A program made the position numbers and the translations under genes. The notes beneath the pieces are model-generated. The model did not search any database and was not told the origin of the DNA. It was given only the letters and a program-made list of their open reading frames with translations. DNA of 64,000 nucleotides, from contig JAACJK010000173.1 in the NCBI GenBank assembly GCA_013368325.1, forward strand, positions 124,001 to 188,000, read 5' to 3'. Position 1 is the first letter of the stretch; the number at the start of each line of letters is the position of its first letter. Positions 9,895 through 49,177 of the stretch are shown piece by piece. The DNA is from Ephemerocybe angulata (taxonomy: Eukaryota > Basidiomycota > Agaricomycetes > Agaricales > Psathyrellaceae).

Positions 9895-10544
9895 TAGTGT
9901 TGCGGGAATTTGATGGGTCAAATTCGCATGGGCTAATTCGCAGGGCTAATTCGCGGCTGATTAGCCCGGCGAGTTTGAAGGGGGATTTGGGAGGGCGAAT
10001 TTGGGCGAATTTGCCAAAATTTGTCGTAATTTGTCGGGATGACTAGTAGCTCAATTTCGCGTAGTATTTTGGTTGTCCTTCCCTATCCTCTGCTATTCAA
10101 GAAGCAATATCATGCCAGAACTCAAAACCACAGAATCTAAGCTCGCCCATCTTATATAAATGCTACCTACAGCGATCTCCGGAAGGTATATCCTGAAGTT
10201 CCTGCCGATGCGCCACTACAAGTTCTCTGAGCACAAAGAAAAGTGTGGGAGGAGTGGCGGATGCATCGATGAAGATGAGGAATGGGCTACATTCAACGCT
10301 TGAAGCCTGGGGATGAGGTCCTGGTTGCCAAGACTCGATGGACGTTGTAGATAGGGCTAATTTGCAGCGAATCTGGGCTAATTTGCGCTAATTTGCTCTG
10401 TTTGTACGCCAAATAAAGCTCAATATTTGTTACACCCGTTTCGGCGAATTTGCGCGAATTTGCAGGGCGAATTTGAACCCCCTCCGCTGATCCCCGCAAA
10501 TTAGCAGGGCGATTTTGATTTGGGGTCAAATTCCCGCAACACTA
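9895..10544. mobile_element. 650-bp non-autonomous DNA transposon (hAT-like MITE)
   Basis: The two ends are inverted repeats starting TAGTGTTGCGGGAATTTGA, flanked by an exact 8-bp target duplication GGCGCGCC (9887-9894 and 10545-10552). Inside each end are many short repeats of GCTAATTTGC/GAATTTGC type, probably transposase-binding sites. There is no coding capacity. The 8-bp duplication fits the hAT group, although other superfamilies also make 8 bp. It lies in the upstream region of homeodomain-like copy A; copy B has uninterrupted, related sequence there. Confidence 0.85.
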
Positions 10545-33031: not shown

Positions 33032-34764
33032 TGTGATTGAAAGCCAGAACAGGCGGAGACAGCCAGGTAGCATTGGAAGCGCTCACAACAACAGTCCCGT
33101 ATTACATAGAAGCAAAGTACATAATAACGTAGTCTGAGCCGTACCTGGTGCCAAGAGCGACAGGTGGCTCGGAGTTCAAATATTTGATGACGGCTTTCCG
33201 GCAAGGAACCCAGGGCACGGCCATGGCGTTTTGATGGGATATTAGAGACGCGTCTTTCCCTTCCCTCTCCATCCCTTCCCCCTATCCGACCACCCACACT
33301 CGTTAAACTCTATGTCTACTACACTAATCTATATTACTATCTAAATGGGCGAAGAATCTGGGCGATGGCTCAATGAATCACTCTGCAAAGCGTTCAAACT
33401 TTCGGAACTCCGGCCTTTCCAGCTCCAACACGCGCTTGACCTTCGCAATGGCCGCGATGTCTTTCTGACCATTGCAACAGGCCAGGGAAAGACCGTAGTC
33501 CTTTTATCACCCCTGGTTGCCGCGAAGGAGAAGTCAGAGAAAGGGATAGGGATAGCAATTGTGCCTACAAAGGCTTTGGCCCAGCAACTCGTACGTGACC
33601 TCATTTACTTTTACTTCTTGTGTCCGAGCTCAGCCCTACCATGGATTAGGAGAAAACAGCGTCATCAGTGGGACTGGGAGCAGTCGCCGTCACCGAGGAT
33701 ACCATTCGGGAAGCGGAAGCTTTGGGTGTAGACCTCTTCAAGGTCCTCTCGGTGGATGGTCTCCGCCTTGCAATCATGAGCCCCCAAATGCTCCGAGGCG
33801 AGCGATTTAATGCCTGGATTCGATCGACACGCATTCGAGAATCTATTCGGTGGATGTTAATTGATGAAGCCCACCTAGTTCTCGAGGAATCCAGTCCGTT
33901 TAGGACGCCCTATACCAACATCGCACTTATGCGCAGCCGCCTTCCGTCCTCCACCGTCTGGTGCGCCGTAACAGGCTCGGTGACTCCAGTTAATGCGCCG
34001 GCTGCTGCAATTCTGCTGGGCTTTCGGCCTGGTCTATATGTCGACGCCCGGTATCGCTTGGATCGCCCGCATATCAAGTATATCCCCCGCATTCTCCAAC
34101 ACTCGACTTCGGGCGGCGAATTCCTTGATCTCGCCTCTACCGTCCCCCTTTCCCTCACATCCGCTCAGCAAATCACCACCACACTCATTTTTACGGAAAC
34201 TATCGCAACCTCGCACGCAGTAATGCGTTTTCTCGACTCACTTATCCCCTCCTCTGTTCCTAATCACTCGCAAATAATCAAACTTTATAATTCTCTAATG
34301 CCTCTTGAGTACCGCCAAAAGTTCATTCGGGATATTACCTCGGGAGAAACACTTCGGATCGGGGTGGTGACGGATTCCCTCACTTACGGACTCGATATCC
34401 CAAATCTGGCGCGCGTCATGCTGTTCGACCTCTGCACCTCCCCGGAAATAATGAAGCAGAAGATGGGGCGCTGCGGGAGGGATGGCCGCCCCGCCGTGGC
34501 GATCACCTACGCTCCGGCATGGGTACAGGAGATTCTGGGCCACGAAATACAGACCCAGAAGGAGAAGGATGAAGCTCGCCGCCGTGCTGCATTGCACCCC
34601 ATGATTCAGAAGTGGTTTAATCCGACTCTGCACCAGTGCCCACGGCTCACGGACAACCAGTACTACGGCGATGATTTCGAGCAGCCGGATAATTGCTGTG
34701 TTGTTTGTTCTCCAGACCCTGAGCAAGACGCAGACCGCGCGGTCATCGAGAAATGGCAGTCAGC

Positions 34765-35962
34765 CACTATAAGCCATCCGCCCGGGAAAATTCACCGGTT
34801 ATTCGCTGGGTAGGCCCCTACCGATTTCGCCGGAAAACCCAGCAAATGTCTGCTGGGTATTGTGCTGTGTATTCCCTGGGTAGCCCAGGGGTGGTTACTG
34901 GGTATCACCTGGAGGGCACCCAGATGATTACCATGACCGCCACGCTAGGCGCCCAGCTGATATCCGAGGACATCTACCGGTGTTCTGTTGTTTTAACCTG
35001 GGTATACCCAGTAGATGACCAGCGGCTTTTACTGGACACCATCCACAGGATATTGCTGTCGGTTCCCATAGAATATCCAGTAAATAACCGGCAAATTTAA
35101 TCCAGTCCACTCGATGATGTGCAATAAAACGGATTATATTGGTAGATAGTATGTAGATACAGGCTCCAGACTACTAGTGACCTAATCGCTGTACTATGTA
35201 CCATAGCAAGCCTGTTATTTAAGCTTCAAGCTTTCAAGCCTCGTTACTTCGCGCCCACCGCCCGCCGCCATCCTCGCCTCTGAAAACACGGAACAAACAC
35301 GGAACTGCAGAACTTCAGCTGCCACTGCATGCGTGCTGAGCAAGGTGTTAGTATTGATACGTCAGGATGCTGGGCGGGTATGTGATTGCGGCGATGGGAG
35401 CGGCTGACAATGAAATCTCGTTGTTACTGTGAACGTGGAGGCACGAGGGTAGTACAGGAGGCGAAAGCAAGGGAATCACCGCTCACCTGAATGATTCAGT
35501 ACCGAGCGACAAGGTGCGTAAATGAGTAAAGGCGAGATAAAGGAGGGCTTGATTACGCACCATATGCCCGTTCTCTGAGCAATGCACGCCCAATGCACGA
35601 CAGAGAGTGGCGGGAATCAAGAGGGAGTAGCAATCGATCTGCTGCGCTGCTCGATTAATATCTATAGTTTTGTAGCTCCGATTGAATGGACTTGACGATC
35701 GCCAAGCGATTAGTGGCAATGGCGGGAAGATGGCAGGGACACATACCCAGTGGCCACCCGGTGACCCGTCACCCAGTATATTTCCAGGACACCCAGTGCC
35801 CACCCAGTGCCCCCAGTCAATGCCCAGAACACCCAGTGAATGCCCCGAAGATGAATCCAGTCGATATCCAGGTGCCCAGGGGACACCTGGAGACTCCCAG
35901 CGGAAAACCGGAGACACCCAGCAGATGCCCGGGGGATTTGACCGGGTGGATGGCTTATAGTG
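34765..35962. mobile_element. 1.2-kb CACTA-type non-autonomous element
   Basis: Ends are inverted repeats beginning CACTATAAGCCATCC, flanked by a 3-bp duplication AGC (34,762-34,764 and 35,963-35,965). CACTA ends with a 3-bp duplication are diagnostic of the CACTA/EnSpm superfamily. Both arms contain many CTGGGTA or TACCCAG-like repeats, inverted with respect to each other, which are typical subterminal binding sites. No transposase is encoded. It interrupts the helicase frame after the codons for 'EKWQS'. Confidence 0.88.
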
Positions 35963-36232
35963 AGCACTACATGCCCGTCAACCCCAGGCTCCCGAGACCG
36001 GAGCTGCCACTGTTTCAAAGGGACTACCTAGGTCGGATGGGACATACCGCAGCCTTTTGACTGGCGAGCGAGACAATCTCAAGGCAGGACTCATGTCCTG
36101 GAGGAGAAGAACATGGAACTCGCTTCGCAAAGAAACTCCAGCAGACATGCATACCCCAGCCGAAGTATTTCTACCCGCCCACATCCTGGTCTACTTGGTC
36201 AATCACGCCCACATCTGCTCCAGTCGCGAGCG

Positions 36233-36592
36233 TATAGAAGTAGCACTAATACAACGCAGTGGCTAAGGCTACTGAACTTACCGAGAGACTAACTAAAGAG
36301 GCGAGCTAAGTGACTACTGAGAGAGACTGGTGAAGTCGATTGTAGATTGAGGTCTAACTAGAGGGTATTTATACATGTCTGAGAGTGTGACCAGAAGTGT
36401 GACTTATACTAATAAGTAAGTAACGGTTGACGAGAGTATATAATGCACGAGTCTGTGATTAGAAGCACTTCAGTGCACGTCAAGGGCATGATGTCATAGG
36501 CTGGTAAAATAGCCTGAATATAGAGGGAAATTTCAAGTCAATGACATCATATGTCTCAGCCTGTCTTCGTGCTATATGCCATATGTTCAACA
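36233..36592 (-). repeat. 3' LTR of the copia element
   Basis: 360 bp, preceded (in element orientation) by the polypurine tract at 36,593-36,604. It nearly matches the LTR at 42,071-42,430. Confidence 0.95.
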
Positions 36593-36635
36593 CTCCCCCT
36601 CGCTAAGTGCATCTGTCAGAGATCGCTGAGCGGAC

Positions 36636-39600
36636 CTAAGGTGAGTAAAACTCTAGTCCTAGTTGTTCCCTGAACTCGACAAACTTGACGCGACCAAGTG
36701 GCTTTGTCATAGTATCGGCAGTGTTCTCAGAGGTGTCAACTCTAAGTATTTCCACATTGCCATCTTCCACACATTCACGGATATAATGATAGCGAACATC
36801 GATGTGTTTGATGCGCCTTTCCTGAATGGGGTTGGAGCCAATGAAGATAGCTCCATTGTTGTCGGAACAGATTGGAACTTTGCCAACGGTCATTCTAAGC
36901 TCTTTAAACATGTGCTTCATCCACATAACCTGACGACTGCAATCTGACAGTGCCATGTATTCTGCTTCAGTTGAGGAGAGAGCAACAGTCTTCTGAGCAT
37001 GTGACGTCCAACTGACAGCGGCGTTAGCCATCTTCACCACATATCCAGTCACAGATCGACGCTTGATCAGATCAGCGGCGTGATCAGAATCCGAATAGGC
37101 AATAAGTCCCTTGCCGGAACGTCCATCAAGAACCAATGAATAGTCCATGGTGCCTCGGAGGTATTTGCAGATATAGAGCGCTCGGTTGAGATGCTCTTGT
37201 GTCGGATTTGCTGCAAATTGCGACAGCTTGGTGACAGCATATGCAATATCAGGGCGTGTGCCTAGCATGAGGTACAGCAATGATCCGATCACAGACTGGA
37301 AGCGGTGTCTCAGTTGTGGGTCAACAGGACCTTCATTGGGTAGAGGGCGATAGCCTTCAACCATGGGTGTGGGAGCGACTCGGCAGTCCATCATTCCGAA
37401 GCGCTCAAGGACAGCTTTGAGATAGTTGGTTTGATCAAGTAAGATCTTGCCATCCTTGCGTTGGATACGCATTCTGAGGAATTCAGACGGTTCACCTAAG
37501 TCCCTACATTCCCATTTGTCCATAAAGAGGTTCTTCTTGGACACAACGAGGTTGGGTTTTGGTCCCATGAATAGAAGATCGTCGACATAAGCGACCACGA
37601 TGACAAATTCACCGTGAGAGTCCTGGAACATGAAAATCCCAGTGTCGGTCGATAGTCGCTGAAACCCTAAGAGCTTCATTGACCCTACAAGCTCCTTGTA
37701 CCATGCGTTGGAGGCTTGCTTTAGACCGTATATGGCACGATGTAGTCGATAGACTTTACGCGCCTGCCCTTTGATAATGAAGCCTTCAGGTTGGAGCATG
37801 TAAATCTCCTCTTCTAACTTGCCATATAGAAAGGCAGTTTTCACGTCGACGGCTGTAATATCCCAGCCCTCCAATGCAGCTAGTGCCAAAAGGAGACGAA
37901 CAGATTCGTATCGTACGACGGGTGAGAAGATCTCGTTGAAGTCTATGCCCTCAACTTGTGAGAAACCTTTGGCAACTAATCGGGCACGTTTCCGACCATC
38001 TGATTTGATGTCGAAAACCCATCTGTTTGCTATAGCCTTTCGGCCAGCAGGTAGATCAGTTAGCGAAAGAACTCCGCGTTTGAAGAGAGCCTCTATCTCC
38101 TCATTGCAGGCCTTAAGCCATTCTTCCCTTTCAGGCTTTGGTAAGCGCATGATATCGCGGAATGTCCACTCGCGTGGTGCTTTTTGAGGTAAGTCTGCAG
38201 GAATTGCCTTTGACAGCAAATGTTCCATAAACTCTACTCCCCCTTCACGGACCAATTTTGCAATATAGGTACCGTAGTCATTCCGCATGGCATCTGCTTG
38301 GTCAGATGATGATTCATCAGAGTCACTTTCATCAGAAGACGATTCTTCGACTTCTGGAGGAGGTGGTGTTGGTGCAGGAATTGGTCCGGGAACCTTTTCC
38401 TTTCCTTTCTGTTGCGAACTACCAGATGGCCTAGTCTCGGTGTCGCCTACAAGTTTTTTCCACTCCTTTTGACCAATTTTCTCAGATTCAACAGGGTTCC
38501 GCTCCCCGTATGAGTTGCCAGGCTTGGTTGGAACTTTCCGCAGTCTGCTTGACGCTCTAGTAGGCGCCGGAGGATCACCTCGTGGAGCACGTTGTCTACC
38601 ACGTTGTTGAGGTTCCTCATTCACCGGAGGCAGAGGTTGCGGCGGATGCGGGCCTTGATCATCGTCATGATTGGGGCCGTTATCCCTTTTAGGTATAGGG
38701 GGTGATGGAGGACGAGGCAGAAAATCATTATCGTCATTATCTCCATCTTCCTCGGGAGGAATGCTATTCTGATCTTGCGATCCCGAAGGTTCGCCTTCTC
38801 TGGTTGTACCGTGTGGTACCACATCTTTACACTTGGGAAAGTATGTCTCATCAAAGGTGGCTGTTGTCGACTTGAAGAGGACATTGTTGGGTTGGCGCAT
38901 GAAGAGATAACCCTTCATTCCTTCCGGATAACCTAAGAAGATCATCATCTCTGATTTCGGAGCCAGTTTATTAACTCGTACATCAGGTGGAAGATAGACG
39001 TAGGCGCCACAGCCAAAAACACGGAAGTGGGATACATCCGGTTTCTTCTTATGTACTAACTCATAAGGAGTTTTCCATTTGAGACGCTTCATGGGTGTCC
39101 TGTTATAGAGGTGCACCGCATGTAGCACAGCAAATTCCCACCAAGACTGAGGAATACAGGCATCCAGTCGCATGGCCTGGGCCTTATCCATAATCGTCCT
39201 GTTGAAGCGTTCTGCCCTTCCATTTTGTTGAGGCACGTGTGGAACACTTTGAAGAATCTTGATTCCTTTCTCTTTGAGGAGATTGTCAAATTCGTGCGAC
39301 TTGTATTCTCCCCCTCCATCTGACATCCATTGCTTAACGCTGGAGCCATAAGTGTTTTCTACCATTGCTAGGAAATTGCGAACGGCTTGGAGGGTGTCAT
39401 TCTTTTTCCTCAAAAGAGTAATCCAGGCATGACCTGAGTAGTCGTCAACGAATGACACATACCATGTGTAACGATGGTACGACTCGATAGGAAAGCTCTT
39501 AAGATCTGAATGAATCTTTTCAAAAGGCTGTTCCGCACGAGTTTCCGAAATGGGGTAAGACTTTGATGGCATCTTCCCTTCTGTGCATCCACGACAGATC

Positions 39601-40397
39601 GGAATTTTCTTAGGAATCGAGATTTCTGGGAATTTCTCTGTGCTCCCCCTGGCCCTTTCGAGCACTTCTTTGGAGGGATGCCCAAAGCGTTTATGCATGG
39701 TTTCGTAATCAACACTGTAAAGTGTCGACAGGGTATCCGCAAGTTTGTTCTGCTGAACGATTTTGGTGCGAAACCAATAGATATTATCGTCAGGGAACTG
39801 TGGGCGGCAGATAACCAGTTGATGATGCAAGGCAGTGTAAATTCCTATTGCATCCTTGTTGCCTTTCACGTATGATCCAGGTCTTTGTAAGAGCTCCCCC
39901 ATAGAGAGGAGTCTTGTATCGAGATTGGGGATATGAAATACTGGAGAGATGCGTGATCGTACAGGTGCGGGCTTTCCCGTTGTTGGGTCATACCCAAAGT
40001 GTTCAACGAAAACCGACCCAACTCCTTGCATTTGGAGTATGCTGTTTTTAGCAGCAGTACGGATCTTTGGACCATTGTCTAGAATCCGGTAATCGTGAAA
40101 GTCTGATATCGCCGCAGTGACGTGTATCGAAGCACCTGAGTCCAATATCCAGAGTTGAAGCCCTGGATTCTCACACTGAGCACAATTAATTGCTGGATTC
40201 AAAGAATCGATTCGAGAAGCAATAGATTTAAGTGCAATACAAGCATCCATATATACATCGTCGCTAAAATCCAACATGTCTAATCGAAGAGACTGTGGAT
40301 CAGCTAAGACGTCAGCGAAATGCTTGGTCAGGTGTGAGGATGGGACGTACGAGTTCGCATCATCGTTGTACCCTGTGTTAATCCCGTCAAGCTGCAT
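36636..40397 (-). CDS. Copia Pol polyprotein
   Basis: One open frame of 1,253 residues. In order: aspartic protease 'WILDSGASIHVT' (about residue 83-94); a GAG-pre-integrase His/Cys segment ending 'CRGCTEGKMPSKSYP'; integrase core ('HSDLKSFP', 'FVDDYSGHAW', 'DGGGEYKS', 'PQQNGRAERFNRT'); reverse transcriptase ('FDIKSDGRKRARLVAKGF', 'YGLKQASNAWY', 'VAYVDDLLFMG' near residue 935); RNase H ('AYSDSDHAAD', 'SSTEAEYMALSD', 'KHIDVRYHYIRE'). All expected active-site residues are visible and no stop interrupts the frame. It overlaps gag by 70 nt in the -1 frame; the frame is open upstream of the ATG, so expression by frameshift or splicing is more likely than independent initiation. Confidence 0.95.
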   Translation of the reverse strand: MQLDGINTGYNDDANSYVPSSHLTKHFADVLADPQSLRLDMLDFSDDVYMDACIALKSIASRIDSLNPAINCAQCENPGLQLWILDSGASIHVTAAISDFHDYRILDNGPKIRTAAKNSILQMQGVGSVFVEHFGYDPTTGKPAPVRSRISPVFHIPNLDTRLLSMGELLQRPGSYVKGNKDAIGIYTALHHQLVICRPQFPDDNIYWFRTKIVQQNKLADTLSTLYSVDYETMHKRFGHPSKEVLERARGSTEKFPEISIPKKIPICRGCTEGKMPSKSYPISETRAEQPFEKIHSDLKSFPIESYHRYTWYVSFVDDYSGHAWITLLRKKNDTLQAVRNFLAMVENTYGSSVKQWMSDGGGEYKSHEFDNLLKEKGIKILQSVPHVPQQNGRAERFNRTIMDKAQAMRLDACIPQSWWEFAVLHAVHLYNRTPMKRLKWKTPYELVHKKKPDVSHFRVFGCGAYVYLPPDVRVNKLAPKSEMMIFLGYPEGMKGYLFMRQPNNVLFKSTTATFDETYFPKCKDVVPHGTTREGEPSGSQDQNSIPPEEDGDNDDNDFLPRPPSPPIPKRDNGPNHDDDQGPHPPQPLPPVNEEPQQRGRQRAPRGDPPAPTRASSRLRKVPTKPGNSYGERNPVESEKIGQKEWKKLVGDTETRPSGSSQQKGKEKVPGPIPAPTPPPPEVEESSSDESDSDESSSDQADAMRNDYGTYIAKLVREGGVEFMEHLLSKAIPADLPQKAPREWTFRDIMRLPKPEREEWLKACNEEIEALFKRGVLSLTDLPAGRKAIANRWVFDIKSDGRKRARLVAKGFSQVEGIDFNEIFSPVVRYESVRLLLALAALEGWDITAVDVKTAFLYGKLEEEIYMLQPEGFIIKGQARKVYRLHRAIYGLKQASNAWYKELVGSMKLLGFQRLSTDTGIFMFQDSHGEFVIVVAYVDDLLFMGPKPNLVVSKKNLFMDKWECRDLGEPSEFLRMRIQRKDGKILLDQTNYLKAVLERFGMMDCRVAPTPMVEGYRPLPNEGPVDPQLRHRFQSVIGSLLYLMLGTRPDIAYAVTKLSQFAANPTQEHLNRALYICKYLRGTMDYSLVLDGRSGKGLIAYSDSDHAADLIKRRSVTGYVVKMANAAVSWTSHAQKTVALSSTEAEYMALSDCSRQVMWMKHMFKELRMTVGKVPICSDNNGAIFIGSNPIQERRIKHIDVRYHYIRECVEDGNVEILRVDTSENTADTMTKPLGRVKFVEFREQLGLEFYSP

Positions 40398-41704
40398 AGC
40401 AGCGTCTTCATCTCCACCCCAGAGAGATCCTTCCGCATCTTGATGGTAAGATCCTCATCGCCAAGTGAGACAGCATCGTCATCATCGACAATGGTAGATT
40501 TGATGGGTGTAGGAGGTGGAGACTCAGTCCTAGCGCGCTTGCTTGGTGGAGGAGAGCTGAGTCGATCAGCAAGTGGAATCTCCTCAAGAACCTTCAAGTT
40601 GCGAGCAGTCTTGGAGACATCGAGTGCTTCGCAGATCTTTTGGGCCTGAGCGACGCTTGGATAGACAGAGTGAGTGACGGTGGAGGTGATCTTGTCGCCA
40701 GTCGCAGGTGTGAAAGCCTTGGCAGGCAGGTTGACGGGTGCCTTGCGGACGACAGATCCCTGAGATCTGATGGTGACGACGGAGGCCGCAGTGGGCTGTG
40801 GGACGTGTGGAGCCAGATTGACGACATGTTGCCCAAGAAGGACAGCAGAGGACGCCATGTGAGACAGATCGTGGGCTTCGTGGGTATGGTGATGATGTTG
40901 ACGAGAATTACCTTGGCCGGAGCCTTGGTTCTTCTTTTTCTCCTTCTTCTTCTTTCCACCAGCGTTGCCACGGGAGTTATTCTTGGGTTCCTGGTTAGAG
41001 GCATTCCCAGAGGAGTTATCCGCGGGCTTGTTCTGTTGTTTCTGTTGACGCTGTTGGTTGAAAGAAGGGTCGTTGTTCTTCCTCTTGATCGCCGTCATCT
41101 TGTTGGCGTGAGCAGAGCTTTGAGTGCGCTCATACTCGGCAATGATCGGGCCTCGTATACTCTCCACAGTGAGTTGACTCTTTGCTTTGGTCTGGAGGAT
41201 GAGGCCGATGATCTGGTCGTACTTGGCAGGAAGAGCGTTGATCAACATCATGGACTGGATGAAGTTGTCAAAGCTGACTTGATTGGCAGTCAGCCTATCC
41301 AGAAGCTCCTGAAACTTGGCCAGTTCTGGGCGGGGATCGTTGCCACTGAACTTGAACGACACAAGCTTCTTGAAGTCCGCATAGATCACGGTAACTCCAG
41401 GAGTACCATATGATTCCTTTAAGAGGTCCCAGACGCCTTTGGAAGAGGTCTGGACAGTGACCGCACTTCGGATAGAAGGGGTTAACCTCAGGATAATTGC
41501 ACCACGTGCTTGCTTGTCTTGCATGTCCCATTTGGCTTGGGCTTCCTTCTCCTCAGCGGTATCACCCTTGGTGGGCCTTTTGTTGGTGCCGTTGACATGG
41601 AGGGAAAGTCCTTGGAGTTCCAGATATGCCCACATCACATCGGACCACATTGCGTAGTTGGTGCCGTCGAAGACAGGGACGAGAGTGGTAAGGGTGTTGG
41701 ACAT
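40328..41704 (-). CDS. Copia Gag-like protein
   Basis: 458 residues. The first 220 match the copia gag (UBN2/DUF4219-like) pattern: 'FDGTNYAMWSDVMWAYLE' at the start, 'WDLLKESYGTPG' and 'FQELLDRLTANQ..FD'. In place of the usual CCHC zinc knuckle there is a Gln/Asn-rich, Lys-rich stretch (about 215-285, including 'GGKKKKEKKKNQG') and a His run ('HHHHTHE'). The C-terminal third is Pro/Ser-rich and acidic. The start ATG is 367 nt from the 5' LTR. It ends inside pol. Confidence 0.9.
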   Translation of the reverse strand: MSNTLTTLVPVFDGTNYAMWSDVMWAYLELQGLSLHVNGTNKRPTKGDTAEEKEAQAKWDMQDKQARGAIILRLTPSIRSAVTVQTSSKGVWDLLKESYGTPGVTVIYADFKKLVSFKFSGNDPRPELAKFQELLDRLTANQVSFDNFIQSMMLINALPAKYDQIIGLILQTKAKSQLTVESIRGPIIAEYERTQSSAHANKMTAIKRKNNDPSFNQQRQQKQQNKPADNSSGNASNQEPKNNSRGNAGGKKKKEKKKNQGSGQGNSRQHHHHTHEAHDLSHMASSAVLLGQHVVNLAPHVPQPTAASVVTIRSQGSVVRKAPVNLPAKAFTPATGDKITSTVTHSVYPSVAQAQKICEALDVSKTARNLKVLEEIPLADRLSSPPPSKRARTESPPPTPIKSTIVDDDDAVSLGDEDLTIKMRKDLSGVEMKTLLCSLTGLTQGTTMMRTRTSHPHT

Positions 41705-41749
41705 ATTGAAGATCTGAAATGAATCAAATCAGCAATTGATCTCCAATCA

Positions 41750-42070
41750 AAGATGCAGCCATAACAGCGCTTCTTTCCCCAAGAGTGAAAATTGCTTATT
41801 AAGCAATTCTCTGGGTGAAAAGCTTAGTTAATCACCATATTGATCGCAGCCACCACAGCGCAGATCAAAATCAATAACAAACGCAGCCATTACAGCGCTG
41901 ATTATTATCGATAGCAATCAAAATGAACGCAGCCATTACAGCGCTGAACATTCTGACGCACAGTCTCAAGGGTAAGTCAGAGCCATTGGGTATGCAGCCA
42001 TTATAGCGCAAACCGAGAGTTGGGAGCAGCCATTACAGCGCATACCCTTGGCCTCTCGGGGCTCATAACT
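41750..42070 (-). repeat. Repeated motif in the copia 5' leader
   Basis: Between the 5' LTR and gag the sequence GCAGCCATTACAGCGC (plus-strand reading) occurs about six times with one or two changes (near 41,756, 41,849, 41,883, 41,931, 41,996 and 42,027), separated by 18-75 nt. It is untranslated in the element. It might be a packaging, dimerisation or protein-binding site. Confidence 0.8.
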
Positions 42071-42430
42071 TATAGAAGTAGCACTAATACAACGCAGTGG
42101 CTAAGGCTACTGAACTTACCGAGAGACTAACTAAAGAGGCGAGCTAAGTGACTACTGAGAGAGACTGGTGAAGTCGATTGTAGATTGAGGTCTAACTAGA
42201 GGGTATTTATACATGTCTGAGAGTGTGACCAGAAGTGTGACTTATACTAATAAGTAAGTAACGGTTGACGAGAGTATATAATGCACGAGTCTGTGATTAG
42301 AAGCACTTCAGTGCACGTCAAGGGCATGATGTCATAGGCTGGTAAAATAGCCTGAATATAGAGGCAAATTTCAAGTCAATGACATCATATGTCTCAGCCT
42401 GTCTTCGTGCTATATGCCATATGTTCAACA
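42071..42430 (-). repeat. 5' LTR of the copia element
   Basis: 360 bp. In element orientation it starts TGTTGAACA and contains TATATA-like sequence (near 42,278) upstream of the leader. Confidence 0.95.
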
Positions 42431-43140
42431 GAGCGTTTCAAGCTTGTCATGGCGGCTTGGAAATGGGTTGATAAGCATGGGCTCAAGTTATACGACTGGC
42501 TTGTTTCAGAGCTCAAAGCATATAAGAAGCCCGGCGCTTCATCTAATACCACCCTTTCGACGACATCACCTCAAGACGACAATGCGATCACCGCCGCAGC
42601 CACAATTCAGTCCGTACCTGAGGTGTCGATCCCATCTCCTGCGACTACAAGCACCACCATCACCCTTTCCGGCAAATTGAAGCTCATCCTTCGCCCGCCC
42701 CAGAACGTCGAGTCCGCGAGCACTCAATTAGGAAAGCGGTCAAGGACTCGTTGGCTGACTCGGAAGGAGGACCGGCAACAAGACGTAAACGGGCTCGCGT
42801 ACCAAAGAAGGGGAAAGAGAATCACAATATTTAGTATACCTAATCTCGTCGATACCTAACGTACTTATTACATTCATTGTACATTCACTCTAAGTCACCC
42901 CCAATAAATGGACTGACATTCGATTCACCCGCATCATACACCATTGGGTTTGTTGGAATTGAAGTTTCATCCTCGAGATCGGCGGAGTCTTCTGCTATGG
43001 GACCGTCGTTGACCGTGCGTGCAATAAAGGCATCGAGCTTCCCGGCCACCAAGATCTCGTATCCCTTTCCAAACTCGTTAATGACTTCGTAAGGCTGCTT
43101 TCGACCAGGTTTGTGTGCGAGGATGCCGTCCGATCGGTAA

Positions 43141-43834
43141 CACAGGGCCAGAAGTACCATGTATTCAGAGAAAAGATACTGAAAACATGCTGAAAACAAT
43201 CTATATTCTTACCGCATGTTTTCAAGGGAAATATGCGGAAAACATTCACGCAGAGTGTTTCCCGGCCGAAACATCGTGAAAACATTCTGAAAACATGCGA
43301 CGGACAAAGCACGCACATGTTTTGGCCGTGATTCCCCGCGGAAACATTCTGAAAACACACAAAGGTCATGTTTTCAGAATGTTTTCCCCGGTAAACATGG
43401 TGAAAACACCTCGCAGCTCACCAGTTGACGTCTACTCCCCGAAAACACTAAGTCGATTACTCCGTACTCGGTAAGGCTGTCCTCGAGCCTATCCCTCCCT
43501 GGTGGTATCTGGGAGCCTCGTATCTTTCTGCTTTCCTAGGCTTTCTGCGACGAATTTAGTACAGCATGTTTTCACCATGTTTACCGGTGGAAATATCCAG
43601 GAAACGCACAAAGGGAGTGTTTACCGGATGTTTCCCGGTGGAAATATGGTTAAATCCTTTGATCTCTTTGTCCATTGCATGTTTTCAGAATGTTTTCAGA
43701 ATGTTCCCGCTTGGAAACGTGGCGCAGGAATGTTTCCCGCACATATTCGGCGGAAACATGTTGAAAGAATATCAATTGTTTTCAGCATGTTTTCATGATC
43801 TTTTCACTGAATACATGGTACTTCTGGCCTTGTG
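43141..43834. mobile_element. 694-bp non-autonomous element in the DUF6589 gene
   Basis: Inverted ends CACAGGGCCAGAAGTACC and CACAAGGCCAGAAGTACC (from the two sides), with a 3-bp duplication TAA (43,138-43,140 and 43,835-43,837). Dozens of GTTTTCA/GAAAACAT repeats fill both arms. No coding capacity. A 3-bp duplication and CACA ends suggest a CACTA-related element. Confidence 0.85.
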
Positions 43835-44973
43835 TAATGCTCGCCAAGTGTGTTTATGTCTGCGTCCTTCTGTGGGTCCGTGTGTGACGATTTTCGCTTT
43901 TGCAAACCAAAGATCCCGGGAAAGAGATCCCTGAGTGCGCTAAACCCTCCAATATTTAGACCAACAGCCTCAGAGAGATGGCGTGAGTCGAAGCTGTGGC
44001 TTTTGGAGTTGAAAAGTCGCTTAAGCCAGAAGTTGAAGTGCTCTTGTAGCAAGTCGAGTTCGAACCAATGCCCGGGCTTCCCAGATGGATTGACGAGATA
44101 ATTGTTTAGAATGGCGTCCTTTAGTGCCTCAGTGAATTCACACATGAAGTTGCAGGCAAGCTCGAGCATTTCGTTTCCGTAGTTTGTTGACCCTGCACCC
44201 CAAAAGGAGAATCGAAGCAACTGACGAGACTTATGGTCAGCCAATGACATTAACGAAGTACCAAGTCGGGCGCCTAACCTTTATTACTTCGAAAACTCGT
44301 CCAATATCCCCCTCTGCAATTGAAGCGCATAGCTCCAAGTACCAGAAGGTCATCCGCATGAAGTTGATGGTATTTGCGAGCGACTCGTCTGGAAGCTGAG
44401 CGCAGCTTGGATGCTCGGGCACATCCGAGTCGGAGCGCGATGGAGGCAATTCATCAGTCATCGGACTCGAGGTTGTGGTGCTCATTGGCTCTACTGGCTC
44501 CCTCGCCTCGTCTGCAGCAGCGGATGTGAGGTAGCGTCTGTAGGCCTCCGTGGAGAACTCCTTGAGGTCGGAAAATTTGAATGCCTTGAGAACTGGATCG
44601 GACGAGAAGTAAATCTGCAAGCCATCAAGTAGCTTTATATTGGCAGCCTGCTTCTCGCATGTACGTTCTTCGCATAGAATTCTGGTGGAACAACTCAGAG
44701 ATGAGTTCAATGGTAACCTACGGAGATACACATACCGTAATGCGTCCAGGGCTAAGGCCTCAAAGATGTCTTCCAATATGTGGTGCGCTTGGTAGAAGTC
44801 ACACTTCGTTGGATTGAATTTATCGCGTCGGATTGCGTGGACATCGTGACGAAGCCCGTGGACGCCGTTTCCGACTGTATCTGACCAAGTGATACGGATA
44901 ATTGCTTTCTGCCAGTTCCATTTGAGATGCCAGAGTTGGATCACCGGAAGAACCCAATCGTGCCTATCGTACG

Positions 44974-46735
44974 CATCAGGAAAAGGCCAGACGCGTGGGA
45001 GCCGTGGGTCACGGCCATCACGCGTCCACGATCACCGTGGGCCCACGAGGAATAGCGTTGATCACGATGGAACGTGGCACCACGCTTCGCCGTGGGCAGC
45101 GTGGGCCACGCTCTCCACGATGCCCCCACGGCGCTCACCACGCCTTCCACGCTACCCACCACACCTCTCCACGGTCGCCCACGCCAATTCACAATCCGAT
45201 TTTCGGTCGCTATTCACTCATATTCATTGATGACATGGTAAATTTGTTATATTCAGGAGTCTAACTACTACAGTAATACATCGAAACATCCTGAATGTGC
45301 TATCTACAATTACCAACCAAACCACCTTCTTGTGAGCGTCAACGCCGAACGATATAGATGAACAGTCGGTCGGATCGCGGCATTTACTAGCCATAACTCG
45401 GAGATTCTACAAGAGATGTCGAGTCAGCAAGGTAATCGCTACAGCGTGATAATAGACGTACCAGGTCCAGGGAGACGCCATTTTGGGACAGAGGGGAATA
45501 GCGAGGTGACACAGACAAAGGCCGAGGGGGTTCGAGGCACTGTGAGGCATGGAGAAAGTCAGAAGATTGTCAAGGGGCACAAAAACGGCACTGACCTTCG
45601 GGGACTTGCCAATGGCTGGATCGCGTCAGTGTACACGTAGTGAGGGAAGGAAGGCTTGCGGTAGTATCGCTACAGTCTTCGATCGAAGACTTGAAGAGGG
45701 AGAATTAGCGGATGATGGCCTTTGAACGCGTCGATAACCCACAGATAACGTACCCATCCCATGGCAATCAAGATCGACTTGGATGGCGGGCTAGATTTCG
45801 ACGATAAGCAACGGTATAAAGAAAAGAAAGGTAGGAAGCACTTACAGATGGCATAAACCATCCAGCGTTGTGACTACACAAGGGGGAAAGGAGAACGGGG
45901 GTGGGGAGCGACGATGATGATGGTTGGGGAAAAGCCAGAGATGTCCGCGCGCACCCGGAAATTTGATTCCGTCACGTGTGCGCGGATTACCAATCGGAGT
46001 TCGAACGAACTTGTGGTATTCGCGCGAAATCGGGCTTCGAGGCTCGACATCTCTTTGGCAATCACTGGATGACTTTCCGCAGGCCTCTGACACAAAACAA
46101 ACCGCTCAACAAAACATATTTCTGAGGAAGCCGTGATGGCCGAGTACGAGGAAGGAAGGTGGAGTGATATGGCCGCGCTTAAGGCCAACACAAACTTCGA
46201 TGTTTGTAGAGGCCTCCAGAGGCCTCTACAAACAAATTCTCCTCGAACAAACCGTGCCATCATCTCCGACCTTCCTTACAAAGGTGTAAATCCGACGGCT
46301 ATCTGCTGTTGGAGACATCCTGCGGAAAGTCATCCACTTTCTGGCGTACCCACCGTTAAATTAAAGTACACAACTCTTATTAACCTGTCCATGTCCCTGT
46401 AAATGAATGTTTAGGAACTGGATTACACTCACAAACGCACAAAACAGACATGTTTCTCATTAGGTCTGCTGTGGTTTCCTCAAAAAGTGAACATTATAGA
46501 ACAGCCAGGACCTGTATATACTCCAAATAGTCCAAGAGAATAGGAGTCTACCCTTTCTGTACTGTAGCAGACTATATTTCCATGTTCTCCTCCGTGGAGG
46601 CGTGGACGCCGTGGTGTGATCGCCGAGCGTGGGCAGCGAATTGATGGCGTGGGCAGGCGTGGCGGTGTTCCCTCCACGATCAGACGCGCCTGCCACGGGC
46701 CCCACGCTCCCCACGCGTCTGGCCTTTTCCTGATG
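44974..46735. mobile_element. 1.76-kb non-autonomous element in the DUF6589 gene
   Basis: Perfect inverted ends starting CATCAGGAAAAGGCCAGACG, with a 2-bp duplication CG (44,972-44,973 and 46,736-46,737). Excision rejoins the protein at 'KTDTP|YDR', as expected for the family. The arms are rich in CGTGGG/CCCACG repeats. The centre has short frames only (45,416-45,640 and 45,842-46,263), without recognisable domains, and a 34-bp palindrome at 46,201. Superfamily unassigned. Confidence 0.85.
46201..46234. repeat. 34-bp near-perfect palindrome
   Basis: Two 16-bp arms (TGTTTGTAGAGGCCTC and its reverse complement) separated by CA. It lies inside the 1.76-kb element and would form a strong hairpin. 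Confidence 0.9.
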
Positions 46736-49177
46736 CGGCGTATCTGTTTTAGCCATATAGCGTTTCAGTTTCCGCATCCGGTCGATCGTCAGTTGGTCAC
46801 CACAGATCATAATGACATGCTCCTGAAGCCAGGTTGGGAGGATCCGCAGCTGCCCAATAAGCAAGTTATGGAGTACGTCCTGATTTCCGCTTGTCGTGGA
46901 TTCGTTGATTGAGGTTGGGCGCATAGGGATGATTTTGCTCTTGCGTAAACGAAGCCGGCGCTTGGCGAGGGCCTGAGTGAAAAGATCTTCGACCTCTGGG
47001 CCAAATCGTCGAAGTGCGGGGACGTGCTTGACCCAAACGCGAAGCAGAGTGGCGTGGCCCGTACCTTCAACATGCTTCCAGTCAATATCCGCAAATAGGG
47101 CGTCCACAGTGAGTTCCTTTCGCCGTTTTTCTCGCAGCGCTTGGAGGATTGGCTCGGACTTGAGGGCTCCGGGGGCCACATCTTCAAGCTGAATCAAAGT
47201 CGCTGCCGTGCCGCTCTGCATTTCGTCACTGTGGGCGACGGTTGGCTGCCAAGCTCGGCGCATCTTGTTAACATTGTCGAACAAGAGGAGGAAGGTTGAC
47301 TGGCGATTTTGTAGGAGAGCACCAAACGATTGTAATTGGTAGTCAGAGTCGTTGGCGAGAACGTGCAGAGTCGCAAGAATAGTGTCGTATGAGACAGTGA
47401 GTCCCATCCGGCCGAGGATAGAAATTATATCACGGTTAGCATTGCAGGTGAACAGAAAAATTCCGATGACCGTCGCAAAGACTATTGCGTATTTATAGCG
47501 GAAGTAGAGCAGCGAAAGTATTGCTACTGTTACGCCCTGTACACCGTCATTGCACCGTCAGTGGAGGGAACGATTTACTTGAGGTGGTAAGGTACGTACC
47601 AGCCACGGATCGCGACGAGAATCTGGTGGAACACCGGAAAGCGAAGGCGGGGTTGTCTCAAGGAAAGGTGATCGGTCGGCGGGCTCCGGTAGGTCATCTT
47701 CAGGCTGCACTTCGACCTGATCTTCGTCCATTTCAGTTGGCAGGTCCGGGAGATACTGTGGGGGACTTGAAGGCGGTAGTGGTTCTGGCGTGTTCGCCTG
47801 GGACGACGGAATATGCCGCGCAAGTTCCACCCGCTTTCTGGTGTTTCCGTTCACAGCTATGGTCGAAAGCAGTGAGAATATCGCAGGGGCCTCCTTCGAA
47901 ATAAGTTCCTGGCTCGACGTAATGCTCCAGGACGTAAGGCTTGTCCAATTGAGCATCTCTGTTGGCGCACGGGTGAACCCAAACGAGGCTTGGAGTAGCC
48001 GCTCGCTCTCCAGGTCCACCAACTCCAAGATCCTCCCCAAACTCCAGTCGAGAAGTGCGTTCTTGGTGCTGGAATGACTTGGTCTTGCCTGTACAAACGT
48101 CCCGTCCAATCGCACAGATGGAGGAAGCGCGTACGGAGGTACGCTCAGCGAGAGAGCACGATCGACCCTTCCATCTAAATCCAGTCGCGCGTTTGGATGC
48201 CGAAAGAAGTAGTCGACGATGGCCACAGGATGCTCGCTCACGTTTGCGCTCTTTGACTTAATGAAGTCTGCCAGTGCCTGAGTGATCTCTTTGTACCGAG
48301 AAAAGCTGTTTTCGCCAGAAAAGTAGACTTTAAGTAGGGCTCCGAATGAATCGAAGCCAGCACGACGCATGCACCGGTACACCACAACTGCTCTTGCCTC
48401 TGGAGTCAAATTGTCCGAGCTTGGGAACTGGTACGTGGCACGATTGCGACGCTTTCTTGGCTGAGAGCTGAGTGTGGTCGTTTTCTCGGAATCGTAGAAG
48501 ATATCTTCGAAAAGACCGGCGCTAAACTGGCGCTCGCTCTCTTGCCACTTTCGGATCTCCGGATCCGTCGAGTCCACAGCCACAGGGCCTGGCGAGGAAG
48601 CTGCGAAGGGAAAGAGGGTCTGGCTTGAGGATGGATAGTGAGGCCATGCTGGGTGGGAGTAAATGGGTGTAGGGGTATATGGGAAGGGGTATCCGGGATG
48701 AGGAGAAGGCGAGCTGATCGGATTTCCGTGTGGTTGCGCAAACGAAGCCATTTGGGAAAGGTCGTGAGGCTGGGAACCTGGGTAATATGAATATGAGGGA
48801 TTGGTTTCCCTTTGTGGGGTTTGAAGTGGTATGCTGTTCTGCTCATCGCTGTCCAAAGAGTCTTCCATTGTGGTGGGCGGTAAAGAAAGTAATCTAATCG
48901 CCCCTATCTCTTACCATCAAATCTCGGAAACCCTTCGGCAGGAAAAGATCATCATTTATTTCAGACTCCGAGCCACCTGGCTGCCAAGACCGGGGTTATC
49001 GACCAGACTCTATATTGAGAACGACTTTTTCTTCTCTACTAGAGTCTGGTTCACGAGACTAATAATAACGAAGCACGTTCCCAGATTACTTAGACCTCAG
49101 CTTCAAAGCCCCATATAACCTGAACTCAGCAGCATTGTCAGCGCCACTTCGACTTCAGGTAAAAGCGAAGCTGGGAC

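Follow-up and report, generated by a model that had tools for sequence, protein, structure and literature searches.

An old transposon copy in Ephemerocybe angulata, probably AcademH-like, pairs a putative DDE transposase of the DUF6589 family with a RecQ-like helicase

What kind of mobile element joins a RecQ-like helicase gene to a gene of the DUF6589 family, and what part might each protein have in its movement? The question is raised by a locus within a 64,000-nt stretch of contig JAACJK010000173.1 of the mushroom Ephemerocybe angulata (positions 124,001 to 188,000), which we call the window. Two convergent genes lie at this locus. In a domain scan the gene on the + strand contained DEAD and Helicase_C domains and the gene on the − strand contained DUF6589 (PF20231, in three separate pieces), with the stop codons 25 nt apart (open reading frame (ORF) ends 42859 and 42885). 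A preliminary description of the window had proposed a DNA transposon with exactly these two genes and with four nested insertions, and our analysis agrees with it on each of these points: insertions A and B lie in the helicase gene, C and D in the DUF6589 gene, and the transposon itself is borne out by shared ends, flanking duplications, copies elsewhere in the genome and empty alleles. We consider it likely that the locus is an old copy, with both genes broken, of an AcademH-like DNA transposon in which DUF6589 would be a DDE transposase and the RecQ-like helicase its partner.

We placed the ends of the element by comparison with eight near-identical relatives elsewhere in the E. angulata genome, all of which have the sharp ends TAGTCT...AGACTA. 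In the window this defines a transposon from 33130 to 49061 (15,932 bp including the four later insertions) that is exactly flanked by the 9-bp sequence ATAATAACG, which occurs in the window only at 33121 and 49062. When aligned to an intact copy on contig C47 (C-numbers denote contigs of the same genome), the window element has its ends at bases 1 and 6098 of that copy, with collinear blocks in between, and subtraction of the four insertions leaves ∼6.1 kb compared with 6,098 bp in the C47 copy. An independent scan for 8–10-bp duplications beside inverted tips, in which the tips of the relatives were not used, ranked the 33130/49061 pair first. The preliminary description had instead set the ends at 33157 and 48981, on the basis of an exact 8-bp match of TGCCAAGA and a 15-bp inverted match of CAGGTGGCTCGGAGT. 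The matches themselves are real, with TGCCAAGA at 33149 and 48982 (and additional exact matches in the window at 10326 and 52847) and CAGGTGGCTCGGAGT at 33161 with its reverse complement at 48965. However, TGCCAAGA sits inside the element, 19 nt from its left end and 72 nt from its right end, the relatives carry GCCAAGACC at both corresponding positions, and the equivalents of the supposed duplication and ends are internal in all eight relatives. The narrower bounds were therefore rejected, and the chance that they delimit the element is negligible. Judged by sequence, TGCCAAGA is a subterminal direct repeat and not the target-site duplication, while CAGGTGGCTCGGAGT is a subterminal rather than a terminal inverted repeat that falls within a predicted hairpin.

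The relatives, which share ends and duplications with the window element, also document movement. Comparison of the fetched flanks of the eight copies showed that their identity begins at TAGTCTGAGCCGTACC and ends at ...GCGAGACTA, and six of the eight are flanked by 9-bp duplications (CGGAGCTTC, GGTTCCCAT, GTTGCAAGG, ATCAGAACA, TCCCAGGCC and GACGAGGGT). The flanks of the C118 relative share no duplication; it has the left flank of C192, and the first 12 bases to its right are those of an internally deleted copy at C151:484464, so that C118 is probably a misjoined contig. Six full copies and C145 exhibited zero substitutions and 0–3 indels (13–14 in C118), and the C139 copy is 100% identical over the fetched parts, which cover all but about 0.7 kb. 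Both genes are intact in the C47 sister copy, and the window helicase is 74% identical to the helicase of seven of the eight, namely those with a single-frame helicase. A joined-flank query retrieved uninterrupted, 100% identical empty alleles from the same assembly for four of eight sites, those of C47 (on C187), C145 (C1), C184 (C60) and C192 (C22), and none for the C55, C139, C117 or window sites. Furthermore, internally deleted copies of 1,315–1,411 bp on C223, C22, C151 and C147 have both ends 100% identical, and all four have 9-bp duplications; a fifth, on C128, is cut by the contig end. Since these derivatives have no DUF6589 match and are too short to hold both genes, their sequences indicate that the ends suffice in cis and that the proteins act in trans. 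The identical empty alleles and the internally deleted copies with identical ends demonstrate that the family has moved recently. We also note that the C145, C184 and C192 insertions are on small contigs while their empty alleles are on C1, C60 and C22, as expected if the assembly contains two haplotypes, and that the C139 copy (C139:587118-593929, 6,812 bp between its ends) contains a ∼0.71-kb tandem duplication, corresponding to C47 1640-2354, of the 3′ part of the helicase gene and the end of the DUF6589 gene.

A RecQ-like helicase also accompanies DUF6589 at many other loci. The 673-aa helicase of the C47 copy is closest to RecQ in the PDB and in NCBIfam (E. coli RecQ, E 4e-11); it scores 56.6 bits against TIGR00614 (recQ_fam), short of the cut-off of 219.8, and because this curated family cut-off is not reached we refer to the protein as RecQ-like. 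Merging the match rows by hand gave 39 DUF6589 loci and 40 helicase places in the E. angulata genome, and 29 of the 39 loci have a helicase match no more than 10 kb away. Genome-wide searches supplied 24 of these positives and a search restricted to DUF6589 loci supplied four, which favours the count because those loci were picked for holding DUF6589; in the remaining one (C125:1059446) the helicase motifs were read by eye in additionally fetched sequence. In the proximity count 28 of the 39 loci were positive, compared with about 0.56 expected if the 40 helicase places were scattered. The pairs are both convergent and divergent and recur in about 13 lineages of the genome, as grouped by hand from the match rows and not measured by alignment. 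Among 20 listed helicase matches from the protein database, five adjoin a DUF6589 match in other species: neighbouring locus tags are found in Coprinellus aureogranulatus (NMY22_g17518/g17517), Marasmius crinis-equi (V5O48_007455/007454) and Marasmius sp. AFHP31 (PQX77_011584/011585), while in Coprinopsis sp. and Armillaria novae-zelandiae the two matches were paired through contigs of identical length. These sequence neighbourhoods show DUF6589 repeatedly partnered by the RecQ-like helicase, in keeping with the partnership proposed in the preliminary description. On C121 we observed a cysteine-rich ORF that by eye resembles a helicase tail and is followed by other sequence.

That deletion derivatives unable to hold both genes have nevertheless moved means that trans action occurs, and the two genes might accordingly be cargo of an element whose transposase is encoded elsewhere. 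We regard this as very unlikely, as the two genes fill the intact element, the pair recurs in the lineages and in the five other fungi noted above, and DUF6589 has a predicted DDE-type fold. Predicted DUF6589 structures resemble the DDE transposases Hermes, P element, Tn5 and RAG1, with an RNase H-like core, and alignments show that invariant acidic residues are kept. E936, D975 and E979 are all conserved, and the assignment of the catalytic glutamate among the acidic residues is not fixed; the registers at the ends of the matches favour D975 or E979 when set against the catalytic positions in Hermes, P, Tn5 and RAG1. A profile search found no DUF6589 relative among PDB sequences, its single listed row (E 0.097) being an unrelated enzyme, and the scanned DUF6589 proteins (three in Pfam, two in NCBIfam) matched no other family. 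The predicted fold and the conservation, on which the choice of catalytic residues is likewise modelled, make DUF6589 most likely a transposase of the DDE type, as the preliminary description had supposed. With at least 223 sequences recovered in our protein searches, this suggests that a large mushroom protein family of unknown function consists of transposases, and it gives a family with hundreds of mushroom members a testable function. The limited literature collection that we searched contained no mention of DUF6589, so that, as far as this collection reaches, connecting the family with a transposase may have no printed precedent.

The preliminary description had also taken the pair to be undescribed and to define a distinct transposon group. 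The first of these views was not supported, since AcademH (PMC10045372, in part) and KolobokH (PMC9587614, in part) both pair a helicase with a transposase. In the excerpts of these sources AcademH (Kojima 2020, Mobile DNA 11:15) is a helicase-encoding Academ lineage with 9- or 10-bp duplications (PMC10045372), reported from Basidiomycota, Ascomycota and Mucoromycota with a helicase that has DEAD and Helicase_C domains (PMC10799480). The E. angulata element likewise occurs in Basidiomycota, carries a helicase with these two domains, and appears, from the predicted fold and conserved acidic residues, to encode a DDE transposase. It also resembles AcademH in its 9-bp duplications, which are found in the window, in six of eight full-length relatives, in four of five deletion derivatives, at C117:1064271 and in both sets of ends on C197; the exceptions are C184 (8 bp), C151:420087 (8 or 9 bp), C118 (none, with its mixed flanks) and C128 (contig end). 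Because the helicase and the 9-bp duplications match AcademH, we believe that the element is probably AcademH-like by analogy and not of an undescribed kind. A separate, undescribed DDE superfamily, which gained a RecQ-like helicase independently of AcademH and converged on the 9-bp duplication, is unlikely. It would fit the lack of any other family match among the scanned DUF6589 proteins and the silence of the searched collection on DUF6589, and KolobokH is, according to part of PMC9587614, another DDE group that acquired RecQ helicases. However, helicase and 9-bp duplication jointly describe AcademH in the excerpt of PMC10045372, AcademH is reported from Basidiomycota in that of PMC10799480, and putative nonautonomous Academ elements are described as widespread in the mushroom Marasmius oreades in the excerpt of PMC8290104.

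Comparison with other superfamilies leads away from them. KolobokH, a Kolobok transposon carrying a RecQ helicase, and Kolobok-1_CCri share with our element a RecQ-like helicase on a fungal DDE transposon (PMC9587614, in part). Unlike KolobokH, the E. angulata element has the helicase as a separate gene, varied 9-bp duplications instead of TTAA, TA... tips instead of RR...YY, and no C/DxxH signature: two alignments, one of 44 and one of 51 sequences, contained no such column pair above 30% between the second D and the last E. Identity with KolobokH was rejected since the length and sequence of the duplications do not fit TTAA, and we give it scarcely any weight. With hAT and P element transposases the predicted protein shares the fold only, namely an RNase H-like core in which an all-alpha stretch precedes the last helix; unlike hAT, it has no C/DxxH and no PDB sequence relative, and the duplications are mostly 9 bp where those of hAT are usually 8 bp. 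KDZ elements (Zisupton, Dileera, Kyakuja) are, like ours, large DNA transposons of fungi that carry accessory genes, but the duplications of Zisupton and Zisupton-1_PGr are given as 8 bp in the excerpt of PMC12730594, and a Pfam scan of the element's protein returned DUF6589 only.

Several results weigh against an AcademH-like transposon moved by DUF6589. The likeness to AcademH is one of description (helicase and duplication length), and any homology of DUF6589 to the Academ transposase is putative. Foldseek by itself produced no match with E below 0.001, and in structure comparison a middling Z, for helical models as high as about 13, may signify no more than a shared arrangement. A helicase core was not shown at 10 of the 39 loci (C77:297940, C77:282546, C117:651438, C121, C18, C207, C185, two on C63, and C197; at C207 the nearest helicase match is 17 kb off), and at the second C86 locus, one of the four positives from the restricted search, the sole match belongs to a neighbouring copy 4.5 kb off. 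One of the eight full-length relatives, on C184, has an 8-bp duplication (GATATGGC). When 11 further DUF6589 loci were scanned for ends, no ends with duplications were found at five (C189, two on C63, C117:651438 and C125:238924), C185 gave one weak candidate (300035-306413) explicable by chance, two C24 loci have tips but no duplication and lie on a palindromic contig, and C151:420087-426613 has tips with a duplication of 8 or 9 bp. The latter is one of three scanned loci with both tips and duplications, which show the same layout in other families. At C117:1064271-1070285 the tips are TAGGCTCG/TAGACTCG and the duplication is GGCTGCGGG, and C197 has two nested sets of ends, both with 9-bp duplications (AGCGCCAGG and CCCTCAGCC). 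The two nested transposons at C197:184220-186475 both have TAG...CTA tips, and the inner one (2,108 bp, with a DUF6589 fragment) lies 36 bp inside the outer.

We examined whether the termini form hairpins by comparing 75-nt terminal windows with their own shuffles (z), using 293 internal windows from three elements as controls. In addition to the two window ends (Table 1), low values were obtained for the C47 right end (−5.1) and both C117:1064271 ends (−6.3 and −5.0), with intermediate values at C151:420087 (−1.2 and −2.8) and the C197 inner left end (−2.4). Altogether z was ≤ −3 at five of 10 ends compared with two of 293 control windows, a contrast to be read with the pattern having been spotted before testing and with the window and C47 right ends having the same stem, hence being non-independent. 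Against a hairpin stand the C47 left end (+1.3, and +0.9 at 110 nt), the C197 inner right end (+0.25) and, examined after the main test, the C197 outer right end (−0.2) and C24 (left −2.2, or −1.6 at 110 nt; right −0.9 at 75 nt and −4.7 only with a 140-nt window, a size without control windows). Because the recently active C47 family has no left hairpin, a hairpin is not strictly required in that family. Stem sequences vary between families and between the two ends of one element. We tentatively suggest, while thinking it rather doubtful, that ends are recognised partly by structure: directly inside the TAGNCTCG tip most ends would bear a palindrome that can extrude as a hairpin, its stem varying in sequence between ends and families yet remaining paired, and the carried RecQ-like helicase would act on these hairpins together with the DUF6589 DDE transposase. 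If true, this would be a DDE transposon that exploits terminal hairpins and a helicase of its own. The predicted hairpins and the TAGNCTCG tips are described here for the E. angulata elements. Apparently new are the putative role of DUF6589 as the transposase and termini able to form hairpins, with stem sequences that vary between ends and families.

For the AcademH-like transposon that we favour, a mechanism can be proposed. DUF6589 would bind the tips (TAGTCT/TAGNCTCG) together with the subterminal repeats and hairpins, excise the element and join it to another site across cuts staggered by 9 bp, giving the 9-bp duplication. The RecQ-like helicase might unwind or remodel the ends, the gap or repair intermediates, which is a guess. 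Resemblance to described systems suggests cut-and-paste rather than replicative movement, and it is likewise by resemblance that a role of the helicase and membership in Academ are proposed. AcademH and KolobokH raise the question of how a helicase contributes to DDE transposition. The hairpin termini suggest one answer, and the identical open-gene copies with their mapped ends, together with the empty alleles and the deletion derivatives, provide material for addressing it.

The features of the window copy are collected in Table 1. With both genes broken, this old copy is presumably inactive by itself. Ends of the CATCA...TGATG type, as in insertion D, are given for PlavakaB in the excerpt of PMC12730594.

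Table 1. Coordinates of the transposon and its parts in the window.
Feature	Position	Strand	Remarks
Left target-site duplication ATAATAACG	33121..33129	.	9 bp, two occurrences in window
Right target-site duplication ATAATAACG	49062..49070	.	9 bp
Whole transposon	33130..49061	.	Relatives' ends and flanking duplication
Left tip TAGTCTGAGCC	33130..33140	+	Same as left tip in eight relatives
Right tip, inward reading TAGTCTCGT	49053..49061	-	6-bp terminal inverted match to left tip
Subterminal direct repeat TGCCAAGA, left	33149..33156	+	Supposed duplication of the preliminary description
Subterminal direct repeat TGCCAAGA, right	48982..48989	+	
Subterminal inverted repeat CAGGTGGCTCGGAGT, left copy	33161..33175	+	Within predicted left hairpin
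Subterminal inverted repeat, right copy	48965..48979	-	
Left terminal hairpin	33131..33175	.	Predicted, z = −4.4
Right terminal hairpin	48999..49056	.	Predicted, z = −4.0; stem ACCAGACTCTA...TAGAGTCTGGT common to C47 copy
RecQ-like helicase gene	33345..42859	+	Broken by insertions A and B; intron near 33594; compared with intact C47 gene
DUF6589 gene (putative DDE transposase)	42885..48868	-	Broken by insertions C and D; introns; start codon set from C47
Nested insertion A, CACTA...TAGTG element	34765..35962	.	3-bp duplication AGC; in helicase gene
Nested insertion B, Copia long terminal repeat (LTR) retrotransposon	36233..42430	-	GAGCG duplication; a single difference between the two LTRs; in helicase gene
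Nested insertion C, like a miniature inverted-repeat transposable element	~43149..43826	.	About 0.68 kb, long inverted ends, exact ends uncertain; in DUF6589 gene
Nested insertion D, CATCA...TGATG ends	44974..46735	.	2-bp duplication CG; in DUF6589 gene

The two C24 loci mentioned above (C24:5595-24500) lie in a 9.4-kb palindrome with arms 99.8% identical, whose centre is the right end of a DUF6589/helicase element. Either a fold-back introduced by assembly or an inverted duplication that was primed at the terminal hairpin may account for it. C143 and C144 also have inverted helicase pairs, which suggest a palindrome there too.

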